Source: Bacteroidales bacterium | Lineage (GTDB): Bacteria; Bacteroidota; Bacteroidia; Bacteroidales; B18-G4 | NCBI GenBank assembly: GCA_030606625.1 | Contig: JAUWGC010000003.1 | Location: 1 to 43,173 of the forward strand | Direction of reading: 5' to 3' | Length of the DNA stretch: 43,173 nt | Part shown: positions 4,561 through 39,753 of the stretch, one piece after another | Layout of the letters: each line of letters begins with the position of its first letter | Position numbering within the stretch: the first letter of the stretch is position 1 | Notes under the pieces: model-generated | What the model was told of the DNA's origin: nothing | The model's database searches: none | What the model saw: the letters and a program-made list of their open reading frames with translations, nothing else | Translations under genes and position numbers: made by a program

Positions 4561-5874
4561 TTACTTCTGTATGATATTTGACATATTTTTATTACCAATG
4601 ATGTTAACCTTTGCCATGTTACAGGTTCCTTTCTGAAGAACACCTGAGAAGTTTTTATTACCATATTCGTAAACATTTGCATCGTTCCAGTTTCCTTTCT
4701 GAGTCTGAAAAGCTTCGTTATCGTCTCCACATTGATAAATATCTGCATCATTCCAGTTTCCTTTCTGAGTCTGTGTAGCTTCGTTATCTTCTCCATACTG
4801 GTTAATACCTGCATCGTTCCAGTTTCCTTTCTGAGTCTGAAAAGCTTCGTTATCTGTTCCTTGCTGGCAAACACTTGCAAAGTTCCAGTTTCCTTTCTGG
4901 ATCTGAAAAGCTTCGTTATCGTCTCCTGTCTGGGAAATACTTGTTTTGTTCCAGTTTCCTTTTTGAGTTTGTGATGCTTCATTATCTTCTCCTACCTGGG
5001 AAATACATGCAATGTTCCAGTTTCCTTTCTGAACCTGTAAAGCTTCATTATCTTCTCCTACCTGGTAAACATCTGCATCGTTCCAGTTTCCTTTTTGAGT
5101 TTGTGTAGCTTCATTATCTTCTCCACGTTGGTAAATCCCTGAATAGTTCCAGTTTCCTTTCTGGGTCTGTGATGCTTCGTTGTCTTCTCCTGTCTGGGAA
5201 ACATCTGTAAAGTTCATGTTTCCTTTTTGAACCTGTGATGCTTCATTATCTTCTCCACGTTGGTAAATCCCTGAATAGTTCCAGTTTCCTTTCTGGGTCT
5301 GTGATGCTTCGTTATCTTCTCCAAGTTGGTAAACACCTGCTTCGTTACAGTTTCCTTTTTGAGTTTGTGTAGCTTCGTTATCTTCTCCACGCTGGTAAAC
5401 ATATGTTTTGTTCCAGTTTCCTTTCTGAGTTTGTAAAGCTTCGTTATCTTCTCCATGCTGGGAAACACCTGCTTCATTCCAGTTTCCTTTCTGAGTCTGA
5501 GAAGCTTCGTTATCGTCTCCATGTTGGTAAACACTTGCTTTATTCCAGTTTCCTTTCTGAGTCTGAATAGCTTCGTTATCTTCTCCACGTTGGTAAACAC
5601 TTGCGTCATTCCAGTTTCCTTTCTGAGTCTGTGTAGCTTCGTTATCTTCTCCACGTTGGTAAACACTTACGTCGTTCCAGTTTCCTTTTTGAGTCTGTGT
5701 AGCTTCATTACTTATTCCCCCTTGATTGATAGAGGCAACATTAAAATTTCCTTTTTGTTCTGTTATAGCAGAGTTTTTGTCTCCTTTAATATGATGTTCT
5801 GCTTTATTGGCATTTTGGCCAAATGATACACTTGCTATAAATAATGCGATTGAAATTAAAATTTGTTTTTTCAT
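4561..5874 (-). CDS. curlin-repeat (CsgA/CsgB-like) secreted amyloid protein
   Basis: This 437-residue protein has a signal peptide (MKKQILISIALFIASVSFG) and then consists almost wholly of 22-residue units. Each unit contains two strands of the form G-x-x-N-x-A-x-x-x-Q, for example GEDNEATQTQK followed by GNWNDASVYQR, the hallmark of curlin repeats that stack as a beta-solenoid in curli fibres. There are 16 well conserved units (residues 53-404), a degenerate unit before them and one and a half after. E. coli CsgA has five, so this is unusually long. Five cysteines are scattered through the variable positions. The ATG at 5874 is preferred over one 10 codons upstream because it begins the signal peptide. 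No csgE, csgF, csgG or second curlin gene lies in the window, so secretion partners must be elsewhere. Confidence 0.85.
   Translation of the reverse strand: MKKQILISIALFIASVSFGQNANKAEHHIKGDKNSAITEQKGNFNVASINQGGISNEATQTQKGNWNDVSVYQRGEDNEATQTQKGNWNDASVYQRGEDNEAIQTQKGNWNKASVYQHGDDNEASQTQKGNWNEAGVSQHGEDNEALQTQKGNWNKTYVYQRGEDNEATQTQKGNCNEAGVYQLGEDNEASQTQKGNWNYSGIYQRGEDNEASQVQKGNMNFTDVSQTGEDNEASQTQKGNWNYSGIYQRGEDNEATQTQKGNWNDADVYQVGEDNEALQVQKGNWNIACISQVGEDNEASQTQKGNWNKTSISQTGDDNEAFQIQKGNWNFASVCQQGTDNEAFQTQKGNWNDAGINQYGEDNEATQTQKGNWNDADIYQCGDDNEAFQTQKGNWNDANVYEYGNKNFSGVLQKGTCNMAKVNIIGNKNMSNIIQK
4663..5718 (-). repeat. 16 tandem 66-bp units encoding curlin repeats
   Basis: The DNA coding for residues 53-404 is a tandem array of 16 units of 66 bp. 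Segments such as the one encoding QTQKGNWN are nearly identical between units, whereas the codons for the last six or seven residues of each unit vary. Because 66 is a multiple of three, other frames also stay open for long stretches. Such an array could gain or lose units by recombination. Confidence 0.88.
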
Positions 5875-5944
5875 GATTTTTGTTTTTTTTAGAGTATTAT
5901 ACATTTTATTTATTTATTTTTTTTCTTTACTTGAGTGTGTGATG

Positions 5945-18963: not shown

Positions 18964-20130
18964 TCAAAAAGTCCACTTTAGACGGATGAAAAGTATTCTT
19001 CCGTAATCGCCGAATTCTGTTTTGGGATCACCGAAAAATAACTGGCCCATGATCAGGAAGGAAATATTTTGAGTGAGTGAAAAATCAATGGAAGGGCCAA
19101 TGTAGAATGATTTATCATTAGGATTGAAAATACCCGCAAGATCAGCTTTGATCAGCGGAGTGACAGGGTAGGAGACCTGGCCAAAAAGGGAGTACCTGGC
19201 CCTTGTGAAATTTTTTGCCGTAATGTCTCTGCTTAGTACAAGAATATTACCCATACTTGCCGGGCCTGTAGTTCCGGCTGAATTGAACAATCCTGCGAAA
19301 TGGATGTACAGGCTATTGCCGAATGTATAATTGATGCCTGCTGACGCAACCACTTCCCCGGTGGAATCACTGAAATTTTCTGCAGCGTGGAAATAGCTCA
19401 GTTCACCATTGAACCCCGCACCTTCTATCTGGCCTGACCATCCCATGCCTAATACAACGTCTTTATTCATGACGCCTCCGAGAAACTGGAAATCGTATTG
19501 CCATTTGTTAAACCTGTATATGCCGGCAAAGGTGATCTCTTCATTTTTTTCGAGCTTAAATGCCGATTCTGCCGATGATGTCATCCCGGTGTAATACTGA
19601 AGTTTGATGGCATCGCATCCGGGCCTTTCAATATAATCGAAATCGAAATAATTAAAAGTATTGAAGATATCATTGGGTGTCCAGACCTGGTTGATACCCC
19701 AGTTGATGCGCTGGCGGCCAAACCTGGCTTCAAAATCCCCCTGGGTAAAAACTATATTAGCCCTGTCGAAAGTAGAATAAATAAAAAATGAAGTGTCATT
19801 GGCAAGGCTGAATGTCATGTCTAAAAAGCCCTGGTCGGTAACCACAACATCATGATAACCGGGATAGTTCAACTGCACAATTTGGCCATAATTCATGATA
19901 TTTCGCATGCCGATATGTGTACGAAAGGTTTTTGATGGATACCATTTGAAATCCAGCCTGTTGTTGATCGAATTCATAGTCATCCAACTCCTGTTGAAAT
20001 CCTGTATCCATAACAACTGCATATCCTGCAGATGCCCGTTTAGAGAAAATTTTTCTGGTGTGTCCGTTTTCCGGGCGAATGTTATGGTTGCAAAAACCAG
20101 CAGTATTGTTAATAAAATGAGCTTTTTCAT
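18964..20130 (-). CDS. outer-membrane beta-barrel protein of the LolA-like/ABC operon
   Basis: A 388-residue exported protein: signal peptide MKKLILLTILLVFATITFA, then amphipathic strands rich in aromatic residues, ending in the sequence RLKWTF with the C-terminal phenylalanine typical of barrels inserted by the BAM complex. Motifs such as FEARFGRQRINWG recall porins and capsule or alginate-export-type barrels, but I cannot assign a family. It is the last gene of a five-gene transport operon, starting 13 bp after the ATPase gene, and probably forms the outer-membrane part of, or a receptor for, that export route. A palindromic element follows its stop. Confidence 0.72.
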   Translation of the reverse strand: MKKLILLTILLVFATITFARKTDTPEKFSLNGHLQDMQLLWIQDFNRSWMTMNSINNRLDFKWYPSKTFRTHIGMRNIMNYGQIVQLNYPGYHDVVVTDQGFLDMTFSLANDTSFFIYSTFDRANIVFTQGDFEARFGRQRINWGINQVWTPNDIFNTFNYFDFDYIERPGCDAIKLQYYTGMTSSAESAFKLEKNEEITFAGIYRFNKWQYDFQFLGGVMNKDVVLGMGWSGQIEGAGFNGELSYFHAAENFSDSTGEVVASAGINYTFGNSLYIHFAGLFNSAGTTGPASMGNILVLSRDITAKNFTRARYSLFGQVSYPVTPLIKADLAGIFNPNDKSFYIGPSIDFSLTQNISFLIMGQLFFGDPKTEFGDYGRILFIRLKWTF

Positions 20131-20143
20131 TTATTATTCTGAT

Positions 20144-20827
20144 CTACCTGGTTATATCACTGACAACCTTGCCATCATCTATGGTTATGATCCTTCTGGC
20201 TTTATCCATAACACGCTGGTCATGGGTTGAAAAAATAAAGGTGATCTTTGACTCTTCATTCATCTGCTGCATCATATCCAGGAGCTCGCCGGTGGACTTT
20301 GAATCAAGATTGGCTGTTGGTTCATCTGCCAGGATAAATTTGGGCCTTGGTGCCAGTGCCCTTGCGACGGCAACCCGTTGTTGCTGGCCTCCTGATAAAT
20401 TACCCGGTCGGTTGTTGATCTTGTCACCAACTCCCACGGATTCAAGTAATTCTTTAGCCCGGTTCACACGTTTTTCCTTAGACCATCCCTGAAGTTGCAT
20501 GATGAAGGTTACATTCTCCAGTGCAGTCAAAACAGGGATCAGGTTGTATGCCTGGAAGACAAAACCAATATTCCGTAGCCTGAAATCAATAAGTTTCCCG
20601 GACTTTAAAGTCCTGAGATTTATTCCGTCAATATAAACTTCACCCTCAGATGGTACGTCAAGGCCTCCAAGCATATTCATAAATGTGGTTTTTCCTGATC
20701 CTGAAGGCCCTACTATTGCGGTGAATTCTCCTTCTTCAAAACTAATATCGATGCCATTAACAGCATTGACAGGGATCTTGGTTTCCCGGTAAACCCTGTG
20801 CAGATTTTTTACTTCAATTACAGCCAT
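20144..20827 (-). CDS. ABC transporter ATPase (LolD/MacB type)
   Basis: A 227-residue nucleotide-binding protein of the LolD/MacB/FtsE class. Walker A is GPSGSGKTT (about residues 38-46), the Q-loop is VFQAYNLIPVLTALENV, the signature LSGGQQQRVAVARAL and Walker B FILADEPTANLDSKS, followed by the H-loop FSTHDQRVM. All catalytic residues are present. It should energise the two FtsX-type permeases encoded immediately upstream (30 bp gap). By family such complexes perform mechanotransmission or lipoprotein release rather than classical import. The true LolCDE of this organism may be elsewhere. Confidence 0.92.
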   Translation of the reverse strand: MAVIEVKNLHRVYRETKIPVNAVNGIDISFEEGEFTAIVGPSGSGKTTFMNMLGGLDVPSEGEVYIDGINLRTLKSGKLIDFRLRNIGFVFQAYNLIPVLTALENVTFIMQLQGWSKEKRVNRAKELLESVGVGDKINNRPGNLSGGQQQRVAVARALAPRPKFILADEPTANLDSKSTGELLDMMQQMNEESKITFIFSTHDQRVMDKARRIITIDDGKVVSDITR

Positions 20828-20857: not shown

Positions 20858-22081
20858 TTATATATCCTCCCGTATGGCACTTGCCGGTTGCAGTTTTAAT
20901 GCTTTTCTTGCAGGCCATATTGATGCAATGCCCGCAGTAATAATTACAGTTATGGTGATGATGATGTAAAACATGGTTTTGACCGTCGGATATACAAAAG
21001 CACTGTATCCCAATGCTTCAAGGCCTTCTGCCACACTGGCAAAATTGATACCGTATTTGCCTGTAATCCCAACAGTTATAATGCTCAGGAATATGCCTAA
21101 AACAGCTCCCGTGACCGATAAAAATATAGTCTCCATCAAAATCATCATAAAAACTTTTCTTTTGTTCATTCCAATGGCCATCAGCATTCCGATCTCCCTG
21201 GTTCTTTCCAGTATAGACATTAACATAGCATTAACGATCCCGAATGTCAGGGCAAAAAGGATGATCACTATCATAATATATGAATACTGGTCCATTAGAG
21301 TGATTATAGCTACCAATGAAGGATCTGTTTCTTTCCAGGATAAGACACTTAACTTTTTGAATTTATCTTTTAAATTATTTGATACCTGGTCAGTGAGATC
21401 ATTGTTATCCAGTAAGATTGCGATTTCAGATGTCTTGTCAGGATCCAACCCGATAAGTTCAACAAGGCTATGGTTTTCAACAAATACATTCATCTCATCA
21501 AATATGGCATTGGAGGTTTTATAGATCCCGGCCACCCTGAATAACCCGTATGAAATATCGCCTGAGAGACTTTGTATCGTAATTACGACCTTTGAGCCCG
21601 GTTTTGCTTTTAGCTTTTCTGCCAATTTTTTACTGATCAGAATGGATGATGTCCTTGATCTTTTTTCAAAATAATTTCCTTTAACAAGTTTTTGATGTAT
21701 ATCAGTTACTAATTTTTCTTTTTCAGGAATGATTCCACTGATGATCACACCATTGCCCGAGTTGGCAGTACTTGCCATTGCTGTTGTTTTAATTCTTTTA
21801 CAAACAGCTTTAACTCCCGGGGTTTGACTGATGAGATGGACAATTGAATCGGCATGATCGATCGTGAAATTAATGGATTTGTCTTCAAGAAATCTGGGAT
21901 CGTGAATCTGGATATTGGATATCTCATTGCTGATTGACGCATCGACCTTCTGCTCTATCCATCCGTTTGATACAGCTATCATAAAGATGCTCCCGAATAA
22001 TCCCAGGGCAATGGCAAGTATCACCACCAAACTCCTGAGTTTATTTCTCCAGACATTTCTCCATGAAACTGATAAAATCAT
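20858..22081 (-). CDS. FtsX/LolE-type ABC permease (second copy)
   Basis: A 407-residue integral membrane protein with an N-terminal membrane segment (LVVILAIALGLFGSIFMIAV), a large periplasmic MacB-like domain (about residues 45-260) and three C-terminal membrane segments in the FtsX domain (MIVIILFALTFGIVNAMLMSILERTREIGMLMAIG is the family's signature region). It is paralogous to and the same length as the next gene, with which it probably forms a heterodimer like LolC/LolE. The start MILSVSWRNVWRNKLRS matches the typical cytoplasmic start of such permeases. It sits in the operon 25 bp after its partner. Confidence 0.9.
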   Translation of the reverse strand: MILSVSWRNVWRNKLRSLVVILAIALGLFGSIFMIAVSNGWIEQKVDASISNEISNIQIHDPRFLEDKSINFTIDHADSIVHLISQTPGVKAVCKRIKTTAMASTANSGNGVIISGIIPEKEKLVTDIHQKLVKGNYFEKRSRTSSILISKKLAEKLKAKPGSKVVITIQSLSGDISYGLFRVAGIYKTSNAIFDEMNVFVENHSLVELIGLDPDKTSEIAILLDNNDLTDQVSNNLKDKFKKLSVLSWKETDPSLVAIITLMDQYSYIMIVIILFALTFGIVNAMLMSILERTREIGMLMAIGMNKRKVFMMILMETIFLSVTGAVLGIFLSIITVGITGKYGINFASVAEGLEALGYSAFVYPTVKTMFYIIITITVIITAGIASIWPARKALKLQPASAIREDI

Positions 22082-22106: not shown

Positions 22107-23330
22107 TTATTTTCCTTTGAAAGCTTTTAAGATATTAAAACGCAATACATATACTATCGGGTAAATAACTGCCAAAAAAGTCAGGATAAGTACCACGATA
22201 CTTTGATTCAGGAAGATGTTCCATTCAAAAGCAAATGGCATCACAGGTTCTGCATTAAACTCCGTCATGGCTTTGGCTGCTTCTCCAGTCAGCCGGATAG
22301 GATGCTTGAAAAAATGCCAGATGAGGGGGATGCTGGCAATTACACCGGTTATAATGGCGATAATCGCAATGAAGATGGTTTCCAGGAAAAGTATTCTTGA
22401 AAGTTTAAACCTTTGCATACCCACAGAGACCAGCAAGGCAAATTCCCTTTTCCGTTCCATTGTCATCATGAGCATGGTTCCGAAAATACCAAATGCCACC
22501 ACCATATAAAGGATTCCAAGCATGAATAAACCGCTGATATTATCACTTTGAATACCCTGCATCAACTCTTTCAGCATTTGCTTCCATGTCATGATCTCAT
22601 AATCATTTCCCAGAAGACTAATCAGTGTATTAGCGGTTTTTGCCAGGTTATCAGGTTCATCTAACATGATTGACAGTGAAGTCAGCCGGTTTGGAGCTGC
22701 ATAAAAATATTGAGCATCTTCAAGCCGCATATAAACCAATTGGTTATTCATATCTGGTGCCGTGAAATGCAGAATGCCAATCACCCTGAATTCACCTGCT
22801 GCAGTGACACCGTGATAACCCTGGCTTAACAAAACTATTGAATCGCCTGTATCGACTTTCAGGTATTTTGCAAGGTTTTCCGCAAGTAATATTTCATCTT
22901 TACCTTCATTGAAGTATCTGCCTCTGATCAGCTTCTTTTCCAGGGCGGTTGTTTTATTTTCTATACCGGGGTGTGTTCCGATCACGGCGACACCTTTTGT
23001 CTGGTCGCCTGATGAAGCCAGGGCAAATGATTCGAGCCTCGGAATAATACTGGTTATATTATCTGTGGAAAGTAATGTTTCATCCAACTCCTCACTGTTC
23101 TCAAAGGTATTGTTGATGGTTTTATCATCCCAGTAACCTGGCGCGTGTATCTGAATATACCCGGTTGTGTTTTTAATGACAGTATTTATCATACTGCCAT
23201 ATGTTCCCACTTGCATGGATCGCATAAGCAGTGCAAGAAAAACTGCGAAAAAAACAGAAGAAATGGTAAGTATTGTTCTTCTTTTGTTTCTCCATAAATT
23301 CCGCCAGGCCAGTTGTATGTGTTCTTTCAT
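22107..23330 (-). CDS. FtsX/LolC-type ABC permease (first copy)
   Basis: A 407-residue permease with the start motif HIQLAWRNLWRNKRRTILTI, a membrane segment, a periplasmic MacB-like domain and three C-terminal segments including MVVAFGIFGTMLMMTMERKREFALLVSVGM. Its start overlaps the stop of the LolA-like gene by four bases (ATGA type), showing translational coupling. With its paralogue and the ATPase it makes a complete LolCDE/MacB-like inner-membrane complex. The cargo is unknown; the coupled LolA-like carrier suggests a lipid or lipoprotein. Confidence 0.9.
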   Translation of the reverse strand: MKEHIQLAWRNLWRNKRRTILTISSVFFAVFLALLMRSMQVGTYGSMINTVIKNTTGYIQIHAPGYWDDKTINNTFENSEELDETLLSTDNITSIIPRLESFALASSGDQTKGVAVIGTHPGIENKTTALEKKLIRGRYFNEGKDEILLAENLAKYLKVDTGDSIVLLSQGYHGVTAAGEFRVIGILHFTAPDMNNQLVYMRLEDAQYFYAAPNRLTSLSIMLDEPDNLAKTANTLISLLGNDYEIMTWKQMLKELMQGIQSDNISGLFMLGILYMVVAFGIFGTMLMMTMERKREFALLVSVGMQRFKLSRILFLETIFIAIIAIITGVIASIPLIWHFFKHPIRLTGEAAKAMTEFNAEPVMPFAFEWNIFLNQSIVVLILTFLAVIYPIVYVLRFNILKAFKGK

Positions 23331-24091
23331 CTTACTTTCTTCATATTTTGCTGAGAGAAGAAACCTTCCGGAAAGGGCTTGTTAAATTCCATTTCGCTGA
23401 TCTCAATTATGGTTTTGTGACCTTTCTTATTGACAGGTTCCATAACCATTATTGATGGTAGTTTTCTATCTCCCATTTGTTTGATTTCCGAACAGATTTC
23501 CCTGTTAACCAACAGCATATCTTCATCATAAAATTCAATTCTTAGCTGGTGATATTCTTCTTTTGCTATCCAGACAAGGACTTTGCCCCAGACAACTGCA
23601 GCATCGGGTAATGGGATCATTTCGATCCGGTAGCAGTCGATTCCGTCGATGGTTTTATCCCCGACGATCTTGTGGGTGTAGTCATTTACATAAGAATTCA
23701 TTTTCACCAGGTCATCGTTGGTAAAGTCTGATCCCATCCATGATTGACTCATCATTGATGGAGGTATCTTGATCATCCGGCTGATAGACGGCATCCAGTT
23801 CCACATGTCGAATTCCCTTTTCAAAAACACCTGGCCCTTGTCCCTTGCAGGGGAAGTGATAAGGATAAGGTAATAATCATCACCCTTTGACCATGATTTC
23901 ATGGTAACATCCCTCGACCATGCCGGCCGGACGACGGTCATTTTCATGATTCCCTGACTTGATAACCCGTTGATCTTATCCTGTGCTTTTTGTACGATTT
24001 CTTTTCCGGTCGGGGTTTGTGCAGTCATATTAACCATACCGGATAAAATTACGATTAAAAAAACACTAACTATTTTATTTATTTTTTTCAT
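23327..24091 (-). CDS. LolA-like outer-membrane lipoprotein-sorting protein
   Basis: A 254-residue periplasmic protein with a signal peptide (MKKINKIVSVFLIVILSGMVNMTAQ) and the LolA/LolB-like fold pattern of COG2834: VVRPAWSRDVTMKSWSKGDDYYLILI, then the strongly conserved WNWMPSISRMIKIPPSMMSQ and SDFTNDDLVK stretches. Members of this group are annotated as outer-membrane lipoprotein-sorting proteins and often occur with FtsX permeases and TetR regulators; the real cargo may be a lipid. The start at 24091 lies inside the end of the tetR gene (17-bp overlap), and the stop overlaps the next start by four bases, so it is coupled on both sides. Confidence 0.85.
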   Translation of the reverse strand: MKKINKIVSVFLIVILSGMVNMTAQTPTGKEIVQKAQDKINGLSSQGIMKMTVVRPAWSRDVTMKSWSKGDDYYLILITSPARDKGQVFLKREFDMWNWMPSISRMIKIPPSMMSQSWMGSDFTNDDLVKMNSYVNDYTHKIVGDKTIDGIDCYRIEMIPLPDAAVVWGKVLVWIAKEEYHQLRIEFYDEDMLLVNREICSEIKQMGDRKLPSIMVMEPVNKKGHKTIIEISEMEFNKPFPEGFFSQQNMKKVR

Positions 24092-24713
24092 TCTGTTCTT
24101 TTTGTGAATTTTTATGACTGAATACATCTATTATCTTTTGTGTTATTTCTTCAAGCGGAAATTTATCAGGGTCCGCAACATAGTTGAGACTCACTCCGTC
24201 CATCACTGCTCCGAAAAACAATGCCTCAGTAACCGGGTTGCTTACCCCCCGTTTATTATAGTATTTTGCCATGATGTTTATATACTTAGGCATAAACTCA
24301 CCGATTCTCTCTTTCACCACTTTGAATACCGGTGGTTGCATACTGATGGCAAAAAATAATTTCCAGTGCTGGATATTATTTTTAATAAGCCTGAAGTTTT
24401 CATGTACCAGGTAATCAAATTCATCTTCCGTAAGGACTCCGTCACGATCGGGATCAAATGTTTCAAATAATTCATCGATTCCCTGGTTAATGATCTCTTT
24501 GATCAGGTCCTCTTTACTTTTAAAATAATTATATAACAATCCCTTTGAAATCCCGGCCTTTTTAGCTATAATGCTGATAGAAGTAGGATAGTACCCCTGG
24601 TTGGCAAAAAGTTCCAGAGCTGTATCCATGATAAGTTTTTTTTTGCTTTCCCTGATTTGTTCGTATTGATCTTCTGTGCGTGGCATAAGTTTGAATTCAG
24701 ATTGACTGGTCAT
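24075..24713 (-). CDS. TetR-family regulator with an EF-hand calcium loop
   Basis: A 212-residue (or, from the inner ATG at 24686, 203-residue) repressor and first gene of the export operon. The TetR DNA-binding domain spans about residues 24-70, with the helix-turn-helix ISIIAKKAGISKGLLYNYFKSKEDL. Directly after it, residues 87-98 read DPDRDGVLTEDE, which fits every ligand position of a canonical EF-hand loop (D1, D3, D5, G6, L8, T9, E12), and it is flanked by helix-like IDELFETF and FDYLVHENF as in a true EF-hand. Calcium sensing is an inference. The C-terminal ligand domain is otherwise unremarkable. An operator-like palindrome overlaps the promoter just upstream, suggesting autorepression. 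Confidence 0.9.
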   Translation of the reverse strand: MTSQSEFKLMPRTEDQYEQIRESKKKLIMDTALELFANQGYYPTSISIIAKKAGISKGLLYNYFKSKEDLIKEIINQGIDELFETFDPDRDGVLTEDEFDYLVHENFRLIKNNIQHWKLFFAISMQPPVFKVVKERIGEFMPKYINIMAKYYNKRGVSNPVTEALFFGAVMDGVSLNYVADPDKFPLEEITQKIIDVFSHKNSQKEQNEKNK

Positions 24714-24742: not shown

Positions 24743-24767
24743 TTGAATGAACGACCGGTCAAAAATA
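24743..24767 (-). promoter_or_regulatory. promoter and overlapping TetR-type operator of the export operon
   Basis: TGAACGACCGGTCA at 24748-24761 is an imperfect palindrome (10 of 14 positions symmetric) similar to the TGAACG...TTCA operators of many TetR regulators. It overlaps TATTTTTG (minus strand, 24760-24767), a perfect TAnnTTTG -7 box. A repressor bound here would block transcription of its own operon. The site also lies beside the tail of the hicA remnant. Confidence 0.62.
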
Positions 24768-25843: not shown

Positions 25844-26857
25844 ATGAAAATAAAAATTATTTTTTTCCTGTTTATTAGTATTATAACTGTTATTTGTGTT
25901 CTTTTTAGTGAATCATGTAAGAAGGATGATTCAGATGATAAAACTCCAGATGGTGGAGATAGCCTGCCAACTTTAACAACAGTTTCTATATATTCTATTA
26001 CACAAAACTCAGCTCAGATAAGATGTGAAGTTACCAGCGATGGTGGTATCCCGGTAACAACAAGAGGAGTGTGTTGGAATACTTATTTACATCCAACCAT
26101 ACTTGATAGTATTACTGTTGATGGAGATAGCACCGGGGTATATACAAGTAATCTCAGTCTTTTAATCCCTAGCACAATTTATTATGTAAGAGCCTATGCA
26201 AAAAATAGCAAAGGAATAGTCTATGGAAATGAATTAAGCTTTACAACTCTAGTACAGCATTGCCAGGGAATACCTACAGTGTATTACAATGGTCAGATAT
26301 ACCATACAGTACAAATTGGCAATCAGTGCTGGCTTATAGAAAACCTGAATGTGGGAACAAGGATTAATGGCAGTAAGGAACAAACAGATAACGGGATTAT
26401 TGAAAAATATTGTTACAAAAATGATCATGCCAATTGTGATATCTATGGTGGTTTATATCAGTGGAATGAATTGATGCAATACACTAACACTCAGGGAACG
26501 CAAGGAATATGCCCTCCGGGTTGGCATATACCAACCGATAAAGAGTTGACGACACTAATTAGTTATTTGGGAGGAGAAGATTTTGCGGGAGGAAGAATGA
26601 AGGAAGTAAATACAACGCACTGGTTGTTTCCAAATACGGGAGCTACCAATTCCAAAGGTTTTACAGCGCTTCCTGGTGGCTTTCGGAACAGCAATAGATA
26701 CTTCTACCTTCTGAAAAGTTACGCTCACTTTTCGTCGTCTACCGAGTATTCTTCAAACCTTGCCTGGTATCGTAATCTTAATTATTTTAGCGATGACGTC
26801 CTCCGGTACCACGGCAATAAACAGTATGGTTATTCTGTACGCTGTCTTAAGGATTAG
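25844..26857 (+). CDS. FISUMP-domain lipoprotein with N-terminal fibronectin-III-like domain
   Basis: A 337-residue surface lipoprotein. The signal peptide ends in the lipobox FSESC, followed by a short acidic linker. Residues about 40-135 form a beta-sandwich of the type common in Bacteroidetes (ITQNSAQIRCEVTSDGGIPVTTRGVCW, TIYYVRAYAKNSKGIVYGNELSFTT). From about 140 onward is a FISUMP domain (Fibrobacter succinogenes major paralogous domain): IGNQCWLIENLNVGTR, ICPPGWHIPTDKELTTLISYLGG, GFTALPGGFRN and the C-terminal YSVRCLKD. Function of the domain is unknown; it is C-lectin-like and found in surface proteins. The gene stands alone after a long A+T-rich spacer. Confidence 0.9.
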   Translation: MKIKIIFFLFISIITVICVLFSESCKKDDSDDKTPDGGDSLPTLTTVSIYSITQNSAQIRCEVTSDGGIPVTTRGVCWNTYLHPTILDSITVDGDSTGVYTSNLSLLIPSTIYYVRAYAKNSKGIVYGNELSFTTLVQHCQGIPTVYYNGQIYHTVQIGNQCWLIENLNVGTRINGSKEQTDNGIIEKYCYKNDHANCDIYGGLYQWNELMQYTNTQGTQGICPPGWHIPTDKELTTLISYLGGEDFAGGRMKEVNTTHWLFPNTGATNSKGFTALPGGFRNSNRYFYLLKSYAHFSSSTEYSSNLAWYRNLNYFSDDVLRYHGNKQYGYSVRCLKD

Positions 26858-37476: not shown

Positions 37477-39753
37477 TCACCATTTAATAATTTTTCTGGT
37501 AATTTGTTCATTAATATCCGGACGGATGCTTATAAAATACACACCATTGGAAAAATGGCTTATATCGATATTTATTGGTGATTCATTAAAAAAAACATCT
37601 TTCCATATTTTTTGACCCATGGGATCGTAAATACAGATATGAACAGGGTAAGAAACAATCTCAGTAGGTAAAACGACTGATATAAAATCATGTGAGGGAT
37701 TAGGGTAGATGCGGACGTTTTGCTCATCCCAAAAATTGATGTCCTGGATTCCGGCATTTACCGGAGGTTTATTAATGTCCGGAAAATAATTGATACCCCC
37801 TGAAAAATTACCAAAAAGCAGGTCCATGTAACCATTGTTGTTCAAATCCTTTATGGCTGCACCAGTCCTGAATCCGGCAGGTAAAATAAAGGAAGTCTGG
37901 GAAACCAGAAGAAACAGGGAATCTGATTCGGTAAAAGCGCCATTTAAGTTACCTTCTATATCCTTAAAGTAAAATATTTTTCCTTGTTCTGAACCCACTA
38001 GCAATTCAAGTTCATCCTGAGGATTTCTGAAAAACCAGGGTGTGCTGTATCCGTCGTATGAAACATTATAGTCGGTCACGTTCACTTTTCCAAGGCTGTC
38101 GGTGACAAGATTAAAAACAGGTTGCTGGATACTTCCGCTGTTATGGAAATAGTTAAGGTTGCCTCCCCGCTCACCGATCACAAGGTCAGGAAGATCGTCC
38201 TGATCCAGGTCAACCAGAAAAGGGGTGCTGAATTTTCCGACATCTATCCCCTGGTAATTTGTGTCTTCCAGTTGAAAATCATCGGGATTGCTGATGCAGG
38301 AACAGTTCCTGTAAAATAAAATGGTTCCGTCATCGATACCTATCAGCATATCCAGATCATCATCTCCATCCAGATCGCCGAAAGTTGGAAAAGCCCCTGT
38401 GACTCCCAGATCTGATACATAGGCAAAATCATCTGAAATAAATTCAAATTCCGGATTTTTGGCTGTTCCCGTATTATGAAAATAAGCAATTTTAGAGGTG
38501 TATACTGAATACAATATCATCCAATGGTCATAAAATGAAGAGTCGTAATAACCATAATTACCGATAAAAAGATCGGTAAGTCCATCCTGGTCATAATCAA
38601 CCAGAACAGGAAAGGCTCCTGAACCTACATCTATCATGTCTCCCTGAAGAAATCTGCTTGTTTGAAATTCAAACACAGGAAATTGGTTTTCGCCGGTGTT
38701 ACGGTATAACCAAACGCTTGAATGATTCTGTGTAACGTAAGGATTAGGATCGAAAGGTGAAACGATCATATCTTTTATCCCATCATTATTAATATCAAGA
38801 TATCTTGCCAGTGGCATGGAAAAAAGATCAATAGGCAGGGAATTGGATGGGAAATCCAGGTCATAGCTGATCATGTAAGCACTATCCGGTGTTCCGCCAT
38901 TGACAAGTTTGATCAGGTCCGGGTAATCCACATCTCCGAGTATAAGATCCTTGTCCTGGTCTGCATCCAGATCGATGACCAGAAACGTTGAGCCTGTATG
39001 CCTGTCTCTCAGATGATTTTCCCATTGCTGATGGGTTGGAACAGCCTTTGGGCCAAAGCAGGTATCCAGGTAAACAACATTTGACTCTTCATTTTCTGCA
39101 AAGTAACCCCAGCAATATTCGGTTCTTTCATAGTCCAGGGAATCTGCTGTCCCGTACTTCTCAATAGATTGGTTTTTATGCAGTTCAACAAAAGAGCCAA
39201 GAGCCCAGAAAGTAAGGATATCCAGGTCGCCGTCATTATCAAGGTCGGTGATGGCCGGATAATCGGCATAAGTGACCAGGATATTGACATAACCGCTGCC
39301 ATAAAAGGAAGTGAGATAAGGATAAACTACTAATTCGAATTTAAGGTCGGCCTGTGAGATATTCTTATATACGATAATACCCGGGTTGCTTTGATTATAG
39401 GTGAAGATATCGTTCTTTCCGTCCATATTATAATCTTCCAGCATTATCCAGTGATCAAATGCCGGAAAGGATTCAATATATGCCGGAGCATAGCTGTAAT
39501 CAACGGAGTTAGATGTGCCATTATTGATAAAAGGCATCAACCGGTTTCCCTGCCTGTCAAAAACCAGCAGGTCCATGATCCCGTCAAGATTCAGGTCTAT
39601 CTCATTGAACTGGCAGGAATTCATTCCACCTGCCCACGGGTATTTATAATAGTCTTTACCGGCTTTCTTCACCGGAATATTTTGAATAGCACTTTGTCCG
39701 GAGATGTAAAGTACAAGTAACAGAAATATGCTGAATAGCAAGATGTTTTTCAT
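37477..39753 (-). CDS. VCBS/FG-GAP repeat protein with type IX secretion tail
   Basis: A 758-residue secreted protein. It begins with a signal peptide (MKNILLFSIFLLLVLYISG) and contains about nine calcium-loop repeats of the D-x-D-x-D-G-x-x-D form, for example DLNLDGIMDLLVF, DYNMDGKNDIF, DLDNDGDLDILTF, DINNDGIKDMIV and DYDQDGLTDLFIG, as in VCBS/FG-GAP beta-propellers. The C-terminus (VRIYPNPSHDFISV, YDPMGQKIW, INIDISHFSNGVYFISI, KIIKW) is a type A sorting domain recognised by the type IX secretion system, so the protein is exported and attached to the surface or released. Its ligand is unknown. It diverges from the response regulator gene with a promoter between. Confidence 0.92.
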   Translation of the reverse strand: MKNILLFSIFLLLVLYISGQSAIQNIPVKKAGKDYYKYPWAGGMNSCQFNEIDLNLDGIMDLLVFDRQGNRLMPFINNGTSNSVDYSYAPAYIESFPAFDHWIMLEDYNMDGKNDIFTYNQSNPGIIVYKNISQADLKFELVVYPYLTSFYGSGYVNILVTYADYPAITDLDNDGDLDILTFWALGSFVELHKNQSIEKYGTADSLDYERTEYCWGYFAENEESNVVYLDTCFGPKAVPTHQQWENHLRDRHTGSTFLVIDLDADQDKDLILGDVDYPDLIKLVNGGTPDSAYMISYDLDFPSNSLPIDLFSMPLARYLDINNDGIKDMIVSPFDPNPYVTQNHSSVWLYRNTGENQFPVFEFQTSRFLQGDMIDVGSGAFPVLVDYDQDGLTDLFIGNYGYYDSSFYDHWMILYSVYTSKIAYFHNTGTAKNPEFEFISDDFAYVSDLGVTGAFPTFGDLDGDDDLDMLIGIDDGTILFYRNCSCISNPDDFQLEDTNYQGIDVGKFSTPFLVDLDQDDLPDLVIGERGGNLNYFHNSGSIQQPVFNLVTDSLGKVNVTDYNVSYDGYSTPWFFRNPQDELELLVGSEQGKIFYFKDIEGNLNGAFTESDSLFLLVSQTSFILPAGFRTGAAIKDLNNNGYMDLLFGNFSGGINYFPDINKPPVNAGIQDINFWDEQNVRIYPNPSHDFISVVLPTEIVSYPVHICIYDPMGQKIWKDVFFNESPINIDISHFSNGVYFISIRPDINEQITRKIIKW

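Follow-up and report, generated by a model that had tools for sequence, protein, structure and literature searches.

The TetR/AcrR-family regulator encoded at 24075–24713 on the minus strand of the window (the whole 43,173-nucleotide stretch of Bacteroidales DNA that was analysed) carries a complete 12-position EF-hand loop, DPDRDGVLTEDE, at residues 87–98 (24420–24455, minus strand). The first-pass annotation had proposed such a loop here, and its open reading frame, coordinates and residues all prove exact; in the reading-frame check, the segment runs on the minus strand from the first base of codon 87 at 24455 to the last base of codon 98 at 24420. Judged from the homologous sequences, the loop is selectively maintained. 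Our favoured explanation, in which we place about even confidence, is that the protein is an autoregulating repressor of an envelope-export operon, with a genuine EF loop in its hinge that tunes the response to an effector by means of a bound metal. In this explanation we infer the binding of a divalent cation at the loop, the identity of that cation, its tuning role and the hydrophobic nature of the ligand.

The regulator is 212 amino acids long as called and scores 64.1 bits against PF00440 (TetR_N) in Pfam, versus a cut-off of 24. The TetR_N DNA-binding domain spans residues 28–74 (24492–24632, minus strand). DPDRDGVLTEDE satisfies the ligand pattern of the 12-residue EF-hand loop at positions 1, 3, 5, 6, 8 and 12. 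The Pfam EF-hand_1 profile scores 25.2 bits on the regulator (E 1e-5; the curated cut-off is 25.4 bits) and matches 46 of 58 family members at E<=0.01. A profile of the loop fragment, searched against the PDB sequences, matches secretagogin, calbindin and calmodulin. These EF-hand proteins (PF00036) share with the window regulator the 12-position loop D-x-[DN]-x-D-G-x-[IL]-x-x-x-E and the flanking helices. However, EF-hands usually occur in pairs in dedicated domains, whereas here a single loop replaces a linker in an unrelated, all-helical fold. The strict pattern, [DN]x[DNS]x[DNS]Gx[ILVF]xxxE, has a background of about 0.002 per 200 amino acids in the flanking reading frames; 13 distant TetR-like reading frames lack it, and in 96 family proteins it lies nowhere beyond the hinge loop. 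A chance match was considered for DPDRDGVLTEDE and is ruled out by this background together with the conservation of the loop.

Conservation was followed in samples of different breadth. A full-length orthologue is present in 20 of 60 relatives, the majority of them with the EF loop. The named-genome scan took the best 80 matches and is hence biased toward close relatives; a scan of the phylum widened the set. The order-level scan, an even sample of genomes, is the least biased of the sets, and the regulator is found in 108 of its 393 genomes. Among 107 order-level TetR loci the strict loop is present in 65, a near-EF form (with N or S in place of G6, or E in place of D5) in 6, and the loop is lost in 36. 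Outside chromosomal contexts, two distant plasmid homologues were the only ones found, and the one from Paenibacillus has neither the loop nor a LolA gene among its annotated neighbours.

Within the family, the positions of the loop behave very differently from one another. To make membership independent of the motif, the loop columns were left out of the tree from which we took a 96-row group containing the window protein. In this group residues 87, 89, 91, 92, 94, 95 and 98 (EF positions 1, 3, 5, 6, 8, 9 and 12) are slow sites, and residues 88, 90, 93, 96 and 97 (positions 2, 4, 7, 10 and 11) are fast ones. All six key positions are kept in 74 rows, five in 9, four in 1, and three or fewer in 12; shuffling of columns, which ignores relatedness, yields at most 7 rows with three or fewer ligands. 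The sequences thus indicate that the EF ligand positions are held or lost as a set. Replacements at the ligand sites remain oxygen ligands (D/N at position 1, N/D at 3, D/N/S/E at 5), a partly circular result as these rows were picked by motif. The alignment of homologues that the first-pass annotation had suggested shows D1, N/D3, D5, G6, L8 and E12 strongly conserved in most close homologues.

These data bear on the possibility that the segment binds no metal and is an acidic, Asn- and Gly-rich tight turn and helix cap between helices alpha4 and alpha5, with a chance likeness to an EF-hand. Short Asp/Pro-containing linkers do occur at the same point in other TetRs. However, a turn or cap does not need the joint keeping or losing of D1, N/D3, D5, G6, L8 and E12, and the aromatic residues at 86, 101 and 102 covary with the loop (uncorrected for relatedness). 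All-or-none ligands and slow ligand sites are what a metal site predicts and are hard to reconcile with a turn or helix cap, and we therefore regard this possibility as quite improbable.

The AlphaFold2 model of the regulator (58-sequence alignment) has a mean pLDDT of 90.2, and the 50 best PDB matches listed by Foldseek for the full model are TetR-type regulators. According to the model, the regulator has an overall TetR fold with a helical ligand domain. Helix alpha4 (residues 67–83; 24465–24515, minus strand) joins the helix-turn-helix to the ligand domain and corresponds to the entering helix of an EF-hand; helix alpha5 (residues 96–112; 24378–24428, minus strand) corresponds to the exiting helix and starts at EF position 10 in both the full and the fragment model. 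The predicted helix-loop-helix at the domain junction is thus present in the model, and the plain continuous helix that would have spoken against it is not seen, the loop separating alpha4 from alpha5. In the full-length model helix 4 stops three residues ahead of loop position 1; in a model of an isolated 65-residue fragment it reaches residue 86, which is the exact canonical EF register. A Foldseek search with this fragment gave no significant match and no EF-hand chain, the top TM-score being to another TetR. EF geometry is therefore supported by the models as far as the loop and the helix boundaries and no further.

The sequence ahead of the repressor gene suggests how it is regulated. An operator-like palindrome, TGACCGGTCGTTCATTCA, is located at 24744–24761 (minus strand), and its 18-bp family consensus, TGACYGAMCGTTCAGTCA, is found ahead of the gene in 75 of the 80 relatives that carry the loop and in 31 of the 34 that lack it; shuffled sequences give almost none. 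Apart from the copy at 24744–24761, the genome (about 85% complete) contains no site that fits the degenerate pattern perfectly. Because the palindrome is conserved before the gene and has no other perfect match in this genome, the regulator is most likely a dedicated local autoregulator acting through this predicted operator. A second operator-like stretch, TGACCAGTCA, was noticed by eye at 24703–24712, at the called start of the regulator. Most relatives in the family alignment begin at the equivalent of M10 (MPRTEDQ; ATG at 24686–24684). Since TGACCAGTCA would otherwise fall on the called start, the homologous start is probably M10, which would give a protein of 203 amino acids with the EF loop at residues 78–89.

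The repressor is the first of six genes in a minus-strand operon, probably one for the export of lipids or lipoproteins in environmental Bacteroidota, whose order is kept in nearly all relatives. It is followed by a LolA-like periplasmic carrier (PF17131; 23327–24127), which likely starts at an internal ATG near 24091 and so overlaps the repressor stop. Two MacB/FtsX (LolC/E-like) permeases (22107–23330 and 20858–22081) and a LolD-like ABC ATPase (20144–20827) come next. The sixth and last gene (18964–20130) encodes a 388-aa secreted protein that seems to have a signal peptide, matches no Pfam family and by eye looks like an outer-membrane barrel; a homologue is present at 55 of 57 loci with a long downstream flank. 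The first-pass annotation had placed a LolA/ABC operon under control of the TetR protein, and the conservation of both operon and operator-like palindrome among relatives supports this. Bacteroidota have several LolA paralogues, of which LolA2 may serve a specialised pathway (PMC11885536); the passages of that paper that we consulted give no description of the present operon. At several loci (L059, L060, L057, L047 and others) an extra MacB/FtsX permease gene lies between LolA and the usual two permeases. In a subset of the outgroup Bacteroidota (L113–L127) the LolA and permease homologues are on the opposite strand, on the upstream side of the TetR gene, and divergent control of the same export system is therefore likely there.

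Loop-less members of the family limit what the metal can be required for. Homologues lacking the loop, within and beyond the order, retain LolA, the permease genes and the operator; in the order sample, of the 34 loop-less loci whose flank is long enough, 32 keep LolA and a permease. The EF ligands are thus not kept everywhere that the regulated operon is kept. In the tree without loop columns there are clear cases of loop-less proteins next to loop-bearing sisters, such as L099 beside L071. The trees require about 9 changes of loop state for a first set of sequences and about 19 for a second, numbers that depend on midpoint roots and weak deep supports. The EF linker is also about as long as the linkers of loop-less TetRs, and the loop fills an ordinary linker place. 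As the loop-less relatives keep both operon and operator, metal is not an obligatory signal and the loop is dispensable. The first-pass annotation had named homologues that keep the operon and lose the acidic positions as evidence against metal sensing; such homologues do exist at those 32 loci, but most homologues (71/107) retain the loop. What falls is calcium as an obligatory signal of the operon.

For the same reason we consider it unlikely that Ca2+ acts directly on the operon, as its inducer or co-repressor, in the way that the first-pass annotation had envisaged. Such a direct switch would suit the position of the loop at the allosteric junction and its strong conservation where present. 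However, the loop-less homologues share the operon and operator, the nearest folds bind lipids and drugs, and free Ca2+ is low in the bacterial cytosol.

A structural role is the main rival to our favoured explanation, and we regard it as possible, if less than probable. Here the loop would hold Ca2+ or Mg2+ constitutively and stabilise the hinge without sensing, and regulation would proceed wholly via another ligand. The retention of operon and operator by loop-less relatives fits this, since the signal then needs no metal, as does the placement of the loop in an ordinary TetR linker of similar length to the loop-less ones. Moreover, a single EF loop is as well suited to Mg2+, or to Ca2+ that stays bound, as it is to sensing. 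On the other hand, a loop needed for stability would be expected to change state less often than the tree suggests, and the Glu that the retained loops have at position 12 favours Ca2+ over Mg2+.

The known systems closest in fold suggest what the main effector may be. The top Foldseek match is FadR of Bacillus subtilis, which responds to acyl-CoA (PDB 3whb, 3whc; E 2.7e-6, TM 0.67) and is also among the closest solved sequences, at 18% identity. However, the EF ligands are absent from the aligned hinge of FadR, and it governs fatty-acid metabolism rather than an export operon. Another close fold match is MtrR of Neisseria gonorrhoeae (PDB 8fw3, 6of0), an envelope-export repressor like the window protein. 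It is about 21% identical and answers hydrophobic drugs and steroids. We know of no EF loop in MtrR. These two fold matches, together with the cargo that transporters of this kind carry, make a hydrophobic effector probable for the window regulator.

In our favoured explanation, a dimer of the repressor would bind the TGACYGAMCGTTCAGTCA operator ahead of its own gene, and the ligand domain would take up a hydrophobic effector, for which FadR and MtrR suggest an acyl or lipid compound. A divalent metal would occupy the loop in the alpha4–alpha5 hinge; it would most likely be Ca2+ because of the Glu at EF position 12, which in established EF-hand chemistry indicates Ca2+ over Mg2+. The metal may then determine how stiffly, or at what angle, alpha4 and alpha5 are joined, and in this way tune the effector signal that reaches the DNA-binding domain. 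The retention of the loop in about two-thirds of relatives makes such tuning of the repressor likely. Judging from TetR folds, this single loop probably has no partner loop in the dimer, and its affinity could therefore be too weak for the Ca2+ of the bacterial cytosol. Only tentatively do we suggest the more specific claim of an order-wide TetR family with a Ca2+-binding EF-hand in the allosteric hinge, with cytosolic Ca2+ acting directly to set or tune how far the export operon is repressed.

Metal-responsive members of the TetR family are known, for example SczA (zinc) and ComR (copper), with sites for transition metals rather than EF-hand loops. Calcium loops of the form Dx[DN]xDG, the identical linear motif in another structural context, have been described in non-EF folds by Rigden and colleagues (PMC3123361), whose text makes no mention of transcription, HTH or DNA-binding contexts. 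We found no EF-hand or calcium-gated TetR in the open-access literature searched, and this absence is weak evidence since the search covered few subscription journals; as far as we found, one-component transcription factors with an EF-hand are undescribed. If true, a hinge set by Ca2+ would make this a one-component calcium-responsive bacterial transcription factor. The matter bears on how bacteria read intracellular calcium, and with this family it can be tested directly. Since repressors with the loop and those naturally without it have operon and operator in common, close relatives can be compared in their response to calcium, among them cultured species such as Carboxylicivirga linearis, Labilibacter marinus and Maribellus sediminis. 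It could also show how a metal site originates from an ordinary linker of a very common repressor fold.

Three further genes of the window deserve mention. Upstream of the repressor and on the opposite strand, the product of 25844–26857 (plus) resembles a lipoprotein and contains a Fibrobacter succinogenes major domain (PF09603). The protein encoded at 37477–39753 (minus) combines FG-GAP repeats with a sorting tail for type IX secretion; several of these repeats have DxDxDG calcium-type loops, here in their ordinary context. Finally, 4561–5904 (minus) encodes a 447-aa protein with 16 curlin repeats (PF07012), and the overlapping same-strand reading frames in another frame are a by-product of this repeat.
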